Source: Ruania suaedae
GTDB lineage: Bacteria > Actinomycetota > Actinomycetes > Actinomycetales > Beutenbergiaceae
Reading direction: 5' to 3'
Length of the DNA stretch: 64,000 bases
Assembly (NCBI RefSeq): GCF_021049265.1
Contig: NZ_CP088018.1
Location: 3,410,001 to 3,474,000 of the forward strand
The first letter of the stretch is position 1. Every line of letters begins with the position of its first letter. Positions 20,105 to 25,740 of this stretch are shown in pieces. The notes beneath the pieces were generated by a model. It searched no databases. It saw nothing but the letters and a program-made list of their open reading frames with translations, and had not been told where the DNA came from. The translations under genes were made by a program, and so were the position numbers.

Positions 20105-21814
20105 TCACCCCGTCTCAGGCCATGCCTCGTCGTCCTCGAAACCCGTCAGCACCGCCGCCGCTGCCTCCCGGAGCTGGGCGCTCAGCACCGTCAGGTCGCT
20201 ACGCTCCGGCGCCCTGGTGTAGACGTGCCCGGTCGGAGTCCACCACGTGGTGATCCCGCTGCGGGGGTCGCGCTCGACCCGGAAGGCACGCTCGGTCTTG
20301 CCCTGGTGATGGCGCCGGCAGAGCACTTGCAGGTTGGTCTCGACCGTCTGCGCCCAGGCCTCGATCGCGGGGACGAACGGCACGATGTGGTCGATCTGGC
20401 CGCGCCACGCGGGCACCAGGCATCCCGGGAACCGGCACGTCTGGTCGCGCTCGAGCACGGCATCGCGCAGATGCTGGGACGGAGCGTAGGAGTCGCACGC
20501 GAGCAGACCGAGCTCGGTGGCCACGATCGTGCACGGATCGGGGCCGTCGCGCTCACGGCGGTGGACCCAGGCCACCACGTGCTGGGCGTTGGTGCCGTCG
20601 GGGACGCCACGAGGCAGGGCGGGAGGCAGTACGGCGTTCATCGGGTCCCACCGGGCGCGGACTCGCCGGGCTTCCTCGTGGGCCGCCTCGTCGGGGGCGG
20701 CCTCGTCGTGGACGGCCTCGCCATCGGCCGTTTCGCCGTGGACCGGCTCGCCCACGGCCCGCAGTGCCGACCCGGTGAAGCCGCGGTGCTCGAGGGTCGC
20801 GTCCGCGGCGAGCCTGCGCACCGCCGCCGCGCTGATCGGCCCGTAGCCGTGCAGCACGGCAGGGCTCTCATCGTCTCCGGCCAGGACCGACTCCGTCACC
20901 GTGATGCGGATGGCCGGCCGCCGCCCGTGTCTGGTGGGCAGCGCGTCACCGCCGGGTGTGTGCCCGCTGGTCAGGATCTCCCGGAACAACTCGGCGAAGG
21001 CGTCGGCCCGCCGCTGATCGAGGGTGCGCGGGTCACCGGCGGCGCAGTCGGCAGCGAGCCCGTCGACCACGCTGTAGGCCATCGCCGCAGACTCCGCGGA
21101 GAGCAACGCACTGACCCATTCCATCTGATGCGGCGCGGGTTCTCGCACCACCCGCCGCCGGCTCCACTCCTTCTCGCGCACACGCTCGGCCCCCGCAGGA
21201 TCGACGGCGAGCACTGCGGCCTCGAGCTCTCGGCGGAACTGCGGGGCGGTGTGATGTTCGCCGTACGCCACGCCGTGCTGCTGCACTGCCCGTGCCTCAC
21301 GCAGCGCGAGATCGCAGGTGGCCTCGGTGATGAGCTCCGCCTTGCGCGGGGTCAGGACTCCCCGCCTGAGCGCGTCCCACACCTCCGGCGCCTCGACGAG
21401 TCCCTCGGCCCGTCCGACCAGAGCCTCTGAGCCATAACCCGTCGTGGCGAGGCGGGCGGCCAGCTCGTCCACCGTCCGCGCCGCGCCCGCCGATCCCCGG
21501 CGTCGTTCCATCAGCTCGACGACGAACTCCGCCTGCAGCGCCGCCACGTGATTGACCAGCCGATCGCCGGCAGCGATCATCTCCACCAGCAGGGCCTCAT
21601 CCGGGGTGGCGGGGCCGTCGCACTCCTGCTCGAGCAGCGCGAGCAGATCCACATCCGGCTCCGCCTCGGCGACGACGGTCGCGGTGTGTGAGGCCCACGC
21701 ATCGAAGGACCCCGACGGCGTCGACCGGTCGGCCCTGAGGGCCTCGGCGAACCGTGCGCCCAGCGGCAGCGCGCCGGTGGGTGCACCACCTCGTCCGGCC
21801 CATTCCGTGGCCAT
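20105..21814 (-). CDS. DUF222 / HNH endonuclease domain protein (13E12 repeat family)
   Basis: 569 residues. A long DUF222 region (about 60-400) precedes a zinc-type HNH domain at about 455-505: CRFPGC, the IDHIVPF metal/catalytic His and NLQVLCRRHHQGKT. A charged, repetitive insert (GEPVHGETADGEAVHDEAAP) lies at about 360-390. The family is greatly expanded in actinobacteria, often as repeated copies, and may be mobile or involved in DNA metabolism; its role is not known. The ATG at 21814 has GGAGG eight bases upstream; a GTG three codons earlier is the alternative. Confidence 0.88.
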   Translation of the reverse strand: MATEWAGRGGAPTGALPLGARFAEALRADRSTPSGSFDAWASHTATVVAEAEPDVDLLALLEQECDGPATPDEALLVEMIAAGDRLVNHVAALQAEFVVELMERRRGSAGAARTVDELAARLATTGYGSEALVGRAEGLVEAPEVWDALRRGVLTPRKAELITEATCDLALREARAVQQHGVAYGEHHTAPQFRRELEAAVLAVDPAGAERVREKEWSRRRVVREPAPHQMEWVSALLSAESAAMAYSVVDGLAADCAAGDPRTLDQRRADAFAELFREILTSGHTPGGDALPTRHGRRPAIRITVTESVLAGDDESPAVLHGYGPISAAAVRRLAADATLEHRGFTGSALRAVGEPVHGETADGEAVHDEAAPDEAAHEEARRVRARWDPMNAVLPPALPRGVPDGTNAQHVVAWVHRRERDGPDPCTIVATELGLLACDSYAPSQHLRDAVLERDQTCRFPGCLVPAWRGQIDHIVPFVPAIEAWAQTVETNLQVLCRRHHQGKTERAFRVERDPRSGITTWWTPTGHVYTRAPERSDLTVLSAQLREAAAAVLTGFEDDEAWPETG

Positions 21815-21899
21815 CGCGCTCACCTCCGCCGCTCGTGTCGTCTGATGTTCAGTAGATCAGCGACCTCTGACATCGAACCTCGGTGCGCACCCAGAACCT

Positions 21900-21931
21900 G
21901 TTGACATTGACGCGACGTCAACGCCCAGACT
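21900..21931 (+). promoter_or_regulatory. MerR-type promoter with 19-base spacer and dyad
   Basis: TTGACA (21901-21906) and CAGACT (21926-21931) are 19 bases apart, the over-long spacing used by MerR-family activators. The spacer carries the perfect palindrome TTGACG-CGA-CGTCAA (21907-21921), and a broader GTTGAC/GTCAAC dyad includes the -35 box. The start point would be near 21938, just before the AAGGAGG ribosome site of the TipA-like gene, so autoregulation is expected. Confidence 0.75.
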
Positions 21932-21957
21932 CGTGGTCGAGCCAAGGAGGAGCACCC

Positions 21958-22716
21958 ATGACCGACACGACCGAGTGGTCGATGCACGAGATCACCCGCG
22001 CGGCCGGCACCACCAGCCGCACGCTGCGTCACTACGACGAGATCGGTCTGCTCCCGCCGGCCCGGATCGGTACCAACGGCTACCGGTACTACGACGCCGA
22101 CGGGCTCGTGCGACTGCAGCGCATCCTGCTGCTGCGCGAGCTCGGGCTCTCCCTGGCCGCCATCGCCGACGTCCTCGCCGGCGACCAGAGCGAGGCCGAG
22201 GCCCTACGCACCCATCTGGACCTGCTCGAGATCGAGCGCGGCCGGCTGGAGCGCAGGATCACCTCGGTCCGCACCACACTCACCACGAGAGAAGGAGGTG
22301 GACCTCTCATGGCCACCGAGATGTTCGACGGCTTCGACCACACCCGGTACGAGCAGGAGGTGACCGAGCGCTGGGGTCGCGATGCCTGGCAGCGCAGCGA
22401 CACCTGGTGGCGCTCGCTCACCACAGACCGCAAGGCCGAGTTCCAGGCCGAGCAACAGCGGATCGCCGCCGGACTCGTCGCCGCGTACAAGGCCGGAACG
22501 GACGCCGGCTCCGCGGACGTCGCCGAGCTCTGCCGGCGCCATCACGACTGGCTGGCCCAGTCCGTAGGCACCGTCAGCAAGGAGTACTACCTCGGCCTGG
22601 CTGACATGTACGTGGCCGACCAGCGATTCGCCACGAACTACGGCGGGCCCGACGGCGCCCGGTATGTCCGGGAGGCGATGCGTGCCTATGCCGACACCGC
22701 GACTTTCGTCCGATAG
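21958..22716 (+). CDS. TipA-like MerR family regulator (long form)
   Basis: 252 residues, close to TipAL of Streptomyces (253). Residues 8-75 form a MerR HTH (SMHEITRAAGTTSRTLRHYD, then NGYRYYD), a dimerisation helix runs to about 108, and a TipAS-like globin-related antibiotic-recognition domain follows (about 120-252, FDHTRYEQEVTERWG and LADMYVADQRFATNY). In TipA a cysteine before the MYV motif bonds thiopeptides covalently; here that position is glycine (LGLADMYV), so binding would be non-covalent or of another ligand. A strong internal ribosome site and ATG lie between the domains. The promoter at 21900-21931 suggests it activates itself. Confidence 0.88.
   Translation: MTDTTEWSMHEITRAAGTTSRTLRHYDEIGLLPPARIGTNGYRYYDADGLVRLQRILLLRELGLSLAAIADVLAGDQSEAEALRTHLDLLEIERGRLERRITSVRTTLTTREGGGPLMATEMFDGFDHTRYEQEVTERWGRDAWQRSDTWWRSLTTDRKAEFQAEQQRIAAGLVAAYKAGTDAGSADVAELCRRHHDWLAQSVGTVSKEYYLGLADMYVADQRFATNYGGPDGARYVREAMRAYADTATFVR
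22291..22716 (+). other. Internal ribosome site and start for a TipAS-like short protein
   Basis: GAAGGAGGTG at 22291-22300 is followed by an in-frame ATG at 22309 (Met118 of the long form). The complementarity to 16S rRNA is better than that of most gene starts in the window. Translation from here gives 135 residues, the isolated ligand-binding domain. Streptomyces tipA makes TipAL and TipAS in the same way from one gene. The short form would act as a ligand sink without DNA binding (family knowledge plus inference). Confidence 0.72.
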
Positions 22717-22887
22717 GCCGCCGGGCGCACCCGGACCCACCGATCAGCGAATCGTCCAGCCCAAGCGCCGGATCGTCCCTTCCCGCCGCCCTCACCGACT
22801 TCCTAGCATCGAAGCACCCACCCTGCGGCGCCTGACGTGCGCGCCCAGGAGCATGACCCGACCTCCAGCGCCGAAGGACCTTCCCCG

Positions 22888-25740
22888 ATGCCCGATCAGC
22901 CCACCACCGCCCGCCCGATTCAGAACGACACCGTCATCGATCTGTCCGGGGCGTGGCAGTGCCGCCTCGACCACGAGGGCGTTGGCGAACTCGAGCAGTG
23001 GTTCCGCCGCGATCTGCCGGGCGAGTCCACCACCCTCACGCTCCCTGGCTCGATCCAGCACCAGGGCCTCGGCGATCCCGTCACGCTGGACACCCCCTGG
23101 ACCGGCGGCATCGTCGACCGCTCCTACTTCACCGACGACGCCTACGCTCCCTACCGCGAGCCGGGCAACATCGCCGTCCCGTTCTGGCTGCAGCCACAGG
23201 TCTACTACCAGGGCGCCGCCTGGTTCCAGCGCGAGATCCACGTCCCCGAGGCCTGGCAGGGCCGGCGCATCGAGCTCGGCCTGGAGCGCGTGCACTGGGA
23301 GTCCACGGTCTGGGTGGACACCCACCGAATCGGATCCGAACGTAGCCTGACAACGGCGCACCGTTTCGATCTCGGGGCACTCACCCCGGGCACGCATCGC
23401 CTCACGATCCGCGTGGACAACCGCGCCGTGGTCGACGTCGGCCCGAACGCCCACAGTGTCTCCGACCACACCCAGGGCAACTGGAACGGCGTCGTCGGCG
23501 CCCTGACCCTGACTGCCCAGCCCGAGGTGAGGATCAGCCAGGTCCGGGTCTTCCCCGAGCTGGCCACCCGCTCCGCCGTGGTCAAGGTCGACATCTCCGG
23601 TGGCACCCGCAGTACGGGAAGCGGACGCGTCGAGGTCACCGCTCGCCCTTACAACGTCCCGGCGCACACCACCGGCACGCACGACGTCGAACCGGTCACC
23701 GCCCTGTTCCAGGCCGAGCACGGCCGCGACCTCGGCGAACGTGGCCTGACCGCCAGCGGAGCCCACGTGGACGTGAGCCTCCCCCTTGGCGAGGACGCGC
23801 GCGCCTGGGACGAGTTCGACCCCACGCTGTACGAGGTCACGGTCACCCTGATTACCGACCTTCACGGCGCCGAGCACCGCGACACCGTCACCACCACCTT
23901 CGGGCTGCGCGAGATCGGCACCGATGGCACGCAGGTCACGATCAACGGGCGCCCGACCTTCGTCCGCGGCACACTCGAGTCCTGCGTCTTCCCGCTGACC
24001 GGCTACCCTCCCACCGACGTCGATTCCTGGCGCGAGATCATCGCCACCGTGAAGGCTCACGGGCTCAACCTGCTGCGGTTCCACTCCTGGTGTCCGCCCG
24101 AGGCGGCCTTCGTGGCCGCCGACGAGGCTGGACTCTACCTCCAGGTCGAGGGTCCGATCTGGGCCAATCAGGGTGCCGCGATCGGCGAGGGCAGGCCGGT
24201 CGACGCCTTCCTCGACGAGGAGACCCGGCGCATCCTACGCGCCTACGGCAACCACCCGTCGTTCGTGATGATGGCGCACGGCAACGAACCCGGGGGGCGC
24301 GATGTGGAGCACCTCACTGCATGGGTCGCCGGCTGGCGCGCCCACGACCCACGTCGCCTCTACACCACCGGCGCCGGTTGGCCCGCCGCCCGTGAGAACG
24401 ACTTCGACAACATCCCCCACCCCCGCGCCCATCGATGGGACGAGGGACTCGAGTCGCGCCTCAACGGCCACCCGCCGGAGACCGAGTCCGACTACGCCGA
24501 GTGGGTGCGCGATCGCCCGGTCGTCAGCCACGAGATCGGGCAGTGGTGCGTCTACCCGGACTTCTCCGAGGTCGAGCGCTACACGGGGCTGATGCAGCCG
24601 AAGAACTTCGGCATCTTCGCCGACTTCCTGCGTGAGGCCGGCATGGCCGACCAGGCGGAGGAGTTCCTTCGCGCCTCCGGCAAGCTCCAGACCCTCTGCT
24701 ACAAGGAGGACATCGAGGCGGCGCTACGCACGGACGGGTTCGGTGGCTTCCACCTGCTGGGCCTATCGGACTTCCCCGGCCAGGGCACCGCACTGGTGGG
24801 CGTGGTCAACCCGTTCTGGGAGTCCAAGGGCTACTGCACTCCGGAGGAGTTCGCCCGCTTCTGCGGACCCACCGTGCCACTGGCCCGGCTTCCCCGCCGG
24901 ATCTGGGCGGCCGACGAGCAGATCACCTTCGAGGTGCAGGTGGCCCACTTCGGGCCGGCTCCCCTGCAGGCGCAGGTGCGCTGGAGCCTACGAGCCGACG
25001 ACGGCGCGGCCTTGAAGGACGGTGTGGTCGCCGAGCAGGAACTCGCTGTGGGCAACGGCACCCGGCTGGGGCCGGTGGTGGTACCGCCGGCTGACCTGGC
25101 CGAGGCTGCGCGGGTCACGTTGGTGGTCACCATCGAGGACGACTCCGGCGCCGTGTACGAGAACGACTGGGACCTGTGGCTCTACCCACAGATCCAGGCC
25201 CAGCCCTCCGGGGCGGTGTGCACCTCTGACGTGCAGCAGGCGATCGAGCGCGCCACGGCCGGCGAGAGTGTGCTGCTCGAACTGAGCCCGGAGAGCATCG
25301 GCAACGACATCGCCCTCGGGTTCACGCCGGTGTTCTGGAACACGGCCTGGACCAAGGGGCAGGCACCGCACACGCTCGGTATCACCCACGATCCGGAGCA
25401 CCCGGTGTTCGCAGGATTCCCCAGCGAGGGCCACACCTCCTGGCAGTGGTGGGAGCCGTTGCACGGGGCTCGCGCCATGCTGCTCGACGGGCTGCCGCAG
25501 ACGATGCGCCCCCTCGTGCAGCCGATCGACACCTGGTTCGAGGCGCGCCGGCTGGGCTGCCTGATCGAGGCCCGGCTCGGCGAAGGGAGGATCGTGGTCA
25601 GCTCGCTCAACCTCGACCCGGGCGCCGACCGGCTCGCCGCGCGGCAGCTGCGGGCCAGCCTGCTCGCCTACATGGCCGGCCCGGCCTTCGCGCCCGCCGA
25701 GACCATCGACGCCGGCCAGCTCCGCAGTCTGCTGCGCTGA
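22888..25740 (+). CDS. Glycoside hydrolase family 2 protein (beta-galactosidase/glucuronidase-like)
   Basis: 950 residues with no signal peptide, so cytoplasmic. Order: GH2 sugar-binding jelly roll (about 15-215, WFQREIHVPEAWQGRRIELG), Ig-like linker (215-355), TIM barrel (about 360-660), and C-terminal beta domains. The acid/base glutamate is E467 in MMAHGNEPGG; the likely nucleophile is E549 in VVSHEIGQWCVYPDF. It removes a non-reducing sugar from imported oligosaccharides; the exact sugar is uncertain. It ends tail-to-tail 29 bases from a carbohydrate ABC operon, which probably imports its substrate. GAAGGA precedes the ATG. Confidence 0.87.
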   Translation: MPDQPTTARPIQNDTVIDLSGAWQCRLDHEGVGELEQWFRRDLPGESTTLTLPGSIQHQGLGDPVTLDTPWTGGIVDRSYFTDDAYAPYREPGNIAVPFWLQPQVYYQGAAWFQREIHVPEAWQGRRIELGLERVHWESTVWVDTHRIGSERSLTTAHRFDLGALTPGTHRLTIRVDNRAVVDVGPNAHSVSDHTQGNWNGVVGALTLTAQPEVRISQVRVFPELATRSAVVKVDISGGTRSTGSGRVEVTARPYNVPAHTTGTHDVEPVTALFQAEHGRDLGERGLTASGAHVDVSLPLGEDARAWDEFDPTLYEVTVTLITDLHGAEHRDTVTTTFGLREIGTDGTQVTINGRPTFVRGTLESCVFPLTGYPPTDVDSWREIIATVKAHGLNLLRFHSWCPPEAAFVAADEAGLYLQVEGPIWANQGAAIGEGRPVDAFLDEETRRILRAYGNHPSFVMMAHGNEPGGRDVEHLTAWVAGWRAHDPRRLYTTGAGWPAARENDFDNIPHPRAHRWDEGLESRLNGHPPETESDYAEWVRDRPVVSHEIGQWCVYPDFSEVERYTGLMQPKNFGIFADFLREAGMADQAEEFLRASGKLQTLCYKEDIEAALRTDGFGGFHLLGLSDFPGQGTALVGVVNPFWESKGYCTPEEFARFCGPTVPLARLPRRIWAADEQITFEVQVAHFGPAPLQAQVRWSLRADDGAALKDGVVAEQELAVGNGTRLGPVVVPPADLAEAARVTLVVTIEDDSGAVYENDWDLWLYPQIQAQPSGAVCTSDVQQAIERATAGESVLLELSPESIGNDIALGFTPVFWNTAWTKGQAPHTLGITHDPEHPVFAGFPSEGHTSWQWWEPLHGARAMLLDGLPQTMRPLVQPIDTWFEARRLGCLIEARLGEGRIVVSSLNLDPGADRLAARQLRASLLAYMAGPAFAPAETIDAGQLRSLLR

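Follow-up and report, generated by a model that had tools for sequence, protein, structure and literature searches.

A TipA-class MerR gene with a conserved internal start and a putative second protein, the free TipAS domain

The window, a 64 kb stretch of DNA (64,000 nucleotides), comes from an actinobacterial genome of 3.56 Mb that is carried on a single contig. It contains a gene whose open reading frame begins with an ATG at 21958-21960 and whose stop codon ends at 22716 (Table 1). Judged by the N-terminal MerR helix-turn-helix and the C-terminal TipAS domain of its product, this gene is a TipA-class MerR regulator. In Pfam, MerR_1 spans residues 8-74 (E 2e-18) and the TipAS domain (PF07739) spans residues 131-244, with 111.5 bits against a cut-off of 23.8; the TipAS match is complete (profile positions 1-117 of 117), and the gene has this single TipAS stretch, with no tandem repeat of the AlbA type in Pfam. 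The coiled coil is assigned through alignment to TipA N and SkgA. The best full-length matches in the PDB are SkgA (7CLA) and then a MerR-like regulator (3QAO), and the best single-domain matches are TipA N (2VZ4) and TipAS (1NY9, 2MBZ). The closest named relative found, in Ruania rhizosphaerae, is 81% identical over residues 1-251.

The gene has a glycoside hydrolase family 2 gene downstream (22888-25740), which adjoins an oppositely oriented transporter permease gene. Among five relatives (L033-L036 and L038), this hydrolase gene is collinear with the regulator only in L033, that of Ruania rhizosphaerae; L034 has other pieces of the region in common. A gene for a DUF222 protein (20105-21823, minus strand) is divergent to the regulator, and because its mechanical ORF start is only 134 bp from the TipA-like start codon, the two genes may share a promoter region.

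Table 1. Features of the TipA-like gene, in positions of the window
Feature	Position	Strand	Basis
MerR-type promoter: -35 TTGACA (21901-21906), 19-bp spacer, -10-like CAGACT (21926-21931)	21901-21931	+	sequence; homologue upstream regions
Operator-like inverted repeat TTGACG-CGA-CGTCAA, in the spacer	21907-21921	.	genome search; homologue upstream regions
Long-form ribosome-binding site AAGGAGGAG	21944-21952	+	sequence; SD score -11.2
Long form, 252 aa: MerR DNA-binding half, coiled coil, TipAS domain	21958-22716	+	ORF translation, Pfam, PDB matches
Internal ribosome-binding site GAAGGAGGTG	22291-22300	+	sequence, homologues, SD scoring
Putative short form, 135 aa: TipAS ligand-binding domain alone	22309-22716	+	start ATG 22309; Pfam, fold prediction

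Inside this reading frame, a Shine-Dalgarno (SD) sequence, GAAGGAGGTG, is followed after 8 nt by an ATG at 22309-22311, which lies 351 nt (117 codons) past the long start and is therefore in frame. Since the TipAS domain occupies residues 131-244, the entire domain falls inside the predicted short form. An earlier note on this DNA had described a TipA-like gene with a long form of 252 residues, an internal SD at 22291-22300, an in-frame ATG at 22309, and a short form of 135 residues; the ORF and Pfam agree with the first part of this description, and its coordinates and lengths are correct throughout. SD strength was scored as the pairing between the anti-SD tail and the bases that lie at -18 to -4 relative to each ATG. 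On this scale ATG 22309 reaches -16.4, and it is the sole ATG at -14 or better among the 1089 present on both strands of the window. When codons were resampled with the amino acids held fixed, using the gene's own codon usage plus a pooled pseudocount, none of 400 resamples matched the internal site (p = 0.0025). The ATG scan and the resampling together rule out an SD that arose by chance. Masking of the internal SD by RNA structure is likewise ruled out, as the local folding is ordinary (z -0.08), and Rfam gives nothing at gathering scores within 21500-23000.

Homologues were collected through genus, order, class, and phylum searches, from which were taken 30 loci among the matches listed, 6 of 6, 104 of 130 (the first 30 included), 70 of 108, and 30 of 120 (with some repeats); they are thus the better-scoring matches and not a random draw. 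Removal of 14 duplicate proteins and of three incomplete or over-long ones (L136, L191, and L157) from the resulting 213 loci left 196 distinct full-length sequences, with the window gene and a weak paralogue, L002, counted in. Within the junction, defined as columns 106-121 of the window protein, an in-frame ATG is present in 187 of the 196 sequences and a GTG in eight of the other nine. Only L002, a second, weak TipAS gene of the same genome (G000:C1:572630-572896), has neither.

The best junction ATG of the 187 genes has a mean SD score of -9.86, with 84.5% at -8 or better, compared with -3.62 and 6% for the other in-frame ATGs of the same genes (n=667), although the junction is favoured both by its residues as such and by the choice of the best among several ATGs, and a synonymous null in which the same choice is made averages -8.0. 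The internal SD is stronger than the long-form SD by more than 0.5 in 123 of 155 genes; these are the genes, among the 187 with a junction ATG, for which the script-chosen long start was usable. As a control, 20 MerR genes without a TipAS match were hand-picked among the matches listed: five have a junction ATG and two have an SD at -8 or better. (A MerR gene without a TipAS match, L248 [G054:C78], is possibly another two-product regulator: the ATG that it carries in this residue range is preceded by a strong SD of -11.9.) The earlier note had read the gene as having a two-product layout and had held that relatives lacking the internal SD and ATG would refute this; the comparison does not refute it. 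All seven same-genus homologues keep the junction ATG, preceded by GAAGGAGGTGA in four and by a shorter GAAGGG in three. The internal translation start is therefore supported by conservation of the site, while the products themselves are what we infer from it.

An internal SD that sits between two domains might instead delay elongating ribosomes there and give the MerR half time to fold, in which case there would be no second protein; ribosome pausing at SD-like sites inside Caulobacter genes has been reported in the available part of PMC4117421. Pausing needs no start codon, yet one is kept in almost every homologue (ATG in 187 and GTG in 8 of 196). In addition, the start and its SD move together. 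By the alignment column in which the internal start lies, the genes fall into a column-118 group that includes the window gene (77 genes), a column-113 group of the Streptomyces tipA type (77), a third set at column 117 (20), and 13 genes at other columns, among them a column-119 subgroup (n 4) with a weak SD of -5.2. Judging by where the S. lividans TipAS chain begins, the Met at column 113 is its first residue. Between subfamilies, the position of the SD shifts together with the start column, which is another point against pausing.

The nature of the start codon itself gives a further indication. Among 89 sequences with a GF[DN]H motif, column 118 is ATG in 76, GTG in six, and something else in seven, six of which have an ATG one codon earlier. 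All six valines at this column are encoded by GTG, and none by GTC, GTA, or GTT; the GTG share of GTN codons in the GF[DN]H genes is 454 of 1080, start codons included. On a quick tree read by eye these six GTG valines fall at about five separate places. (The tree covers 119 rows, made up of 12 plasmid relatives, one in three of the column-113 rows, one in two of the column-118 rows, and all others except L002; the order in which the start column changed is likewise a by-eye reading of it.) Valine encoded only by GTG speaks against pausing, which we regard as highly unlikely to account for the site, and it also speaks against a purely structural reading of the conserved residues.

On the structural reading, an alpha6-alpha7 contact with the DNA-binding domain accounts for the conservation of Met118 and the Gly/Glu-rich linker, and the SD is a by-product of those residues. 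This reading is consistent with the SkgA dimer, in which the residue aligned with Met118, Met115, forms a hydrogen bond to Arg44 in the DNA-binding part (available text of PMC7762955), so that conservation of the Met may be partly structural. The structural reading also fits genes of the tipA type, where the residues M-E-A alone yield GGAGG and synonymous resampling therefore finds no excess (p<0.05 in 1 of 77). Nevertheless, the residues beneath the SD differ from gene to gene while the pairing stays: in the column-118 group they include GAA GGA GGT (EGG), GAG AAG AGG AGG (EKRR), and GCA GAA GGG (AEG), as well as KRR and KGD, and in the tipA type they are MEA. Within the column-118 group the SD core is found in each codon phase (in 4, 6, and 67 genes), it being noted that cores were matched over 4 to 10 bases and that many are short (4 or 5 bases in 131 of 186, all groups together).

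Synonymous codon choice in the window's group is also difficult to reconcile with a by-product, since codons such as GAA GGA GGT stand in place of GC-ending ones. In the column-118 group, GC at third positions falls from about 0.87 to 0.38, 0.21, 0.19, 0.48, and 0.52 over codons -6 to -2 and is 0.48 at +1. The enrichment of AT3 thus extends to the codon after the ATG, a further point against pausing. Among representatives below 65% identity, AT3 at the junction exceeds that elsewhere in the column-118 group (0.484 versus 0.106, p 4e-8, 26 representatives), in the column-113 group (0.225 versus 0.098, p 5e-4, 25 representatives), and in the column-117 group (0.40 versus 0.129, p 6e-5, 15 representatives); the junction is the single AT3-richest window of eight codons in 17 of 26, 3 of 25, and 5 of 15 of these, respectively. 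The synonymous test gives p<0.05 in 36 of the 77 column-118 genes and in none of the 20 column-117 genes, its silence in the column-113 and column-117 groups being explained by residues that alone largely make the SD. Among 50 representatives below 60% identity, four reach p<0.05, while a paired comparison over all of them shows a significant shift (Wilcoxon p 2e-5). Given these codon choices, the varying residues, and the GTG valines, we consider the structural reading most unlikely.

Taken together, the joint movement of start column and SD, the variation in phase and residues, the dip in third-position GC, and the exclusive use of GTG for valine support selection for the internal start and not for the protein that it overlaps. 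The site also extends outside the phylum. Matches were present in 35 plasmid records, 12 of which were analysed: all eight Bacillota relatives have a junction ATG, seven of them with an SD at -8 or better and one with a weak SD (-5.6); a Pelagibacterium relative has a junction ATG with an SD of -8.9, and one from the actinobacterium Rhodococcus ruber has a junction ATG with an SD of -11.6. No ATG is found at the junction in the Novosphingobium and Sphingomonas relatives. Because the Bacillota and Pelagibacterium plasmid relatives have the junction ATG, the two-product layout may be older than Actinomycetota; the two sphingomonad homologues without the site would then mean that it was lost, or never gained, in some lineages. 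On balance, we think it more likely than not that the two-product layout is no peculiarity of Streptomyces tipA and that most MerR-TipAS genes have it as an old trait under selection. The internal ribosome site would then have persisted in both Actinomycetota and Bacillota despite sliding by one to five codons and changing phase and residues, and a regulator plus a free drug sponge would be the default of the family.

Upstream of the gene, the spacer of the putative promoter is of the long kind that is typical of MerR-activated promoters. The operator sequence lying in it, TTGACGNNNCGTCAA, has one occurrence in the whole genome, at 21907-21921. In the relatives, TGACGnnnCGTCA is present near the long start (at most 250 nt ahead of the chosen start or 100 nt past it) in 76 of the 77 column-118 genes and in 15 of the 20 genes of the column-117 group, compared with two occurrences in 299,049 bases of control; the 77 tipA-type genes have CTCACGnnnCGTGAG in 33 cases, the TGACG form in six, and neither exact pattern in 38. 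An operator that is unique in the genome and lies near the long start in relatives fits a gene that regulates mainly itself, and the arrangement suggests autoregulation through a MerR-type promoter with an operator. A regulon beyond the gene itself is not supported, as the operator pattern is at one genomic site; a looser pattern with 2 mismatches occurs at three further places, against one for a reversed-pattern control. In 43 of 76 genes of the column-118 group and 12 of 17 of the column-117 group (L134, L028, L017, and L122, for example), the first in-frame start lies less than 24 nt after the operator, near the -10 box. The long form in those relatives may be translated from a leaderless mRNA and the short form by way of its SD, an arrangement that would favour the short product.

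A short product could in principle be translated from a short mRNA made at an internal promoter, or be cut from the long form by proteolysis, instead of arising by internal initiation on the long mRNA. Internal transcripts with short in-frame products have been reported in bacteria, as in the available account of ftsW in Caulobacter. Against such a promoter, a consensus scan with 16-18 nt spacers finds no sigma-70-like site in 21820-22900, although because of these spacer limits the scan also misses the gene's own promoter; an internal promoter would in any case still use the ATG and SD found here. (A scan for intrinsic terminators found none.) Proteolysis would need neither an SD, nor a start codon, nor the codon signature. 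We therefore judge an origin by either route to be unlikely and favour internal initiation.

The predicted short form is all-helical, with a mean pLDDT of 88 and with residues 1-9 under 50 (AlphaFold2, from a 15-sequence alignment). At E <0.001 a single PDB entry matches it, namely 2MBZ, the TipAS of the promothiocin complex (E 1.8e-4, TM 0.72). In the alignment, Gly213 of the window protein takes the place of the cysteine in the TipA motif CLGEMY, which we take to be the thiopeptide-bonding one of the two TipA cysteines. The earlier note had seen here a replacement of cysteine by glycine. The glycine is real, but no special replacement is involved and loss of the cysteine is ruled out as a special trait, since glycine is the commonest residue in this column (150 of 196, against 22 of 196 with cysteine). 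The 22 cysteine carriers have their starts at column 113 (19 genes), 108 (two), and 112 (one), and on this comparison glycine is the ordinary state and cysteine the specialised one. The second TipA cysteine, in DCG, is present in 75 of 77 column-113 genes and absent from the window protein. With both TipA cysteines absent, covalent capture of a ligand through them appears unlikely.

We consider it highly probable that the gene is a self-regulated TipA-class switch in which two proteins would be made from one mRNA. The start sites, domain boundary, promoter, operator, conservation, and codon signature on which this reading draws come from sequence and the fold from prediction; the making of both proteins we infer. 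The mechanism, drawn by analogy with S. lividans TipAL/TipAS, is probably as follows. The long form would sit on its own promoter, between the two hexamers, and capture of a ligand by its TipAS domain would lead it to activate that promoter. Ribosomes would enter the same mRNA at the internal SD as well and produce the TipAS domain alone, and this short form, present in surplus, would bind and sequester the same ligand. In S. lividans, tipA makes both forms; TipAS predominates and retains the antibiotic, and TipAL is the activator of the promoter (available text of PMC7762955). Because the long-form SD of the window gene is also good, the ratio of its two putative products is not predictable.

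If this reading is true, annotation overlooks a free ligand-binding protein in many genes that are listed as a single MerR regulator, and these genes follow a simple rule by which one gene with one promoter buffers a toxic ligand. The generality of dual products in the TipA class then becomes a directly testable question. The family would also offer a bacterial internal start under visible selection, in which a ribosome-binding sequence is conserved independently of the protein that it overlaps. The open-licence literature searched, available in part, holds no statement on family-wide conservation of the internal start, a result that does not prove that none exists. Genes of the TipAL/TipAS kind are known; it is the family-wide conservation, the sliding, and the phase-switching of the internal start that were not found in print.

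Among known systems, Mta of Bacillus and SkgA of Caulobacter are, like the window protein, TipA-class MerR regulators; the literature passages available contain no report of a short product for either. Phage endolysins also have two in-frame ORFs with a common stop codon in one gene (PMC9430671, in the part available), although the proteins and their role are unrelated. AlbA of Klebsiella (AlbAL/AlbAS) is a MerR protein described as containing an in-frame start from which a short, drug-binding form would be made (PMC12531866, available text), but it has two tandem TipAS-like repeats whereas the window gene has one; according to the portion of PMC6078987 available, both AlbA species are still to be identified in vivo. 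The nearest parallel in layout is S. lividans tipA, which likewise combines MerR and TipAS domains; its in-frame internal start gives TipAS alone and it shows autoregulation of the MerR type, two traits that are predicted for the window gene as well; the lengths of 252 residues for the window protein and 253 for TipAL (the latter from the same part of PMC6078987) are also alike. The two genes differ in that the internal start of the window gene lies five alignment columns further downstream and has its own SD, formed by the codons GAA GGA GGT in place of the ATG GAG GCA of the tipA type. In addition, the operator of the window gene has TTGACG/CGTCAA, compared with CTCACG/CGTGAG in L188, which stands in for tipA with 91% identity to S. 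lividans TipAS over that domain, and the TipAS domain of the window protein is without the two cysteines found in TipA.
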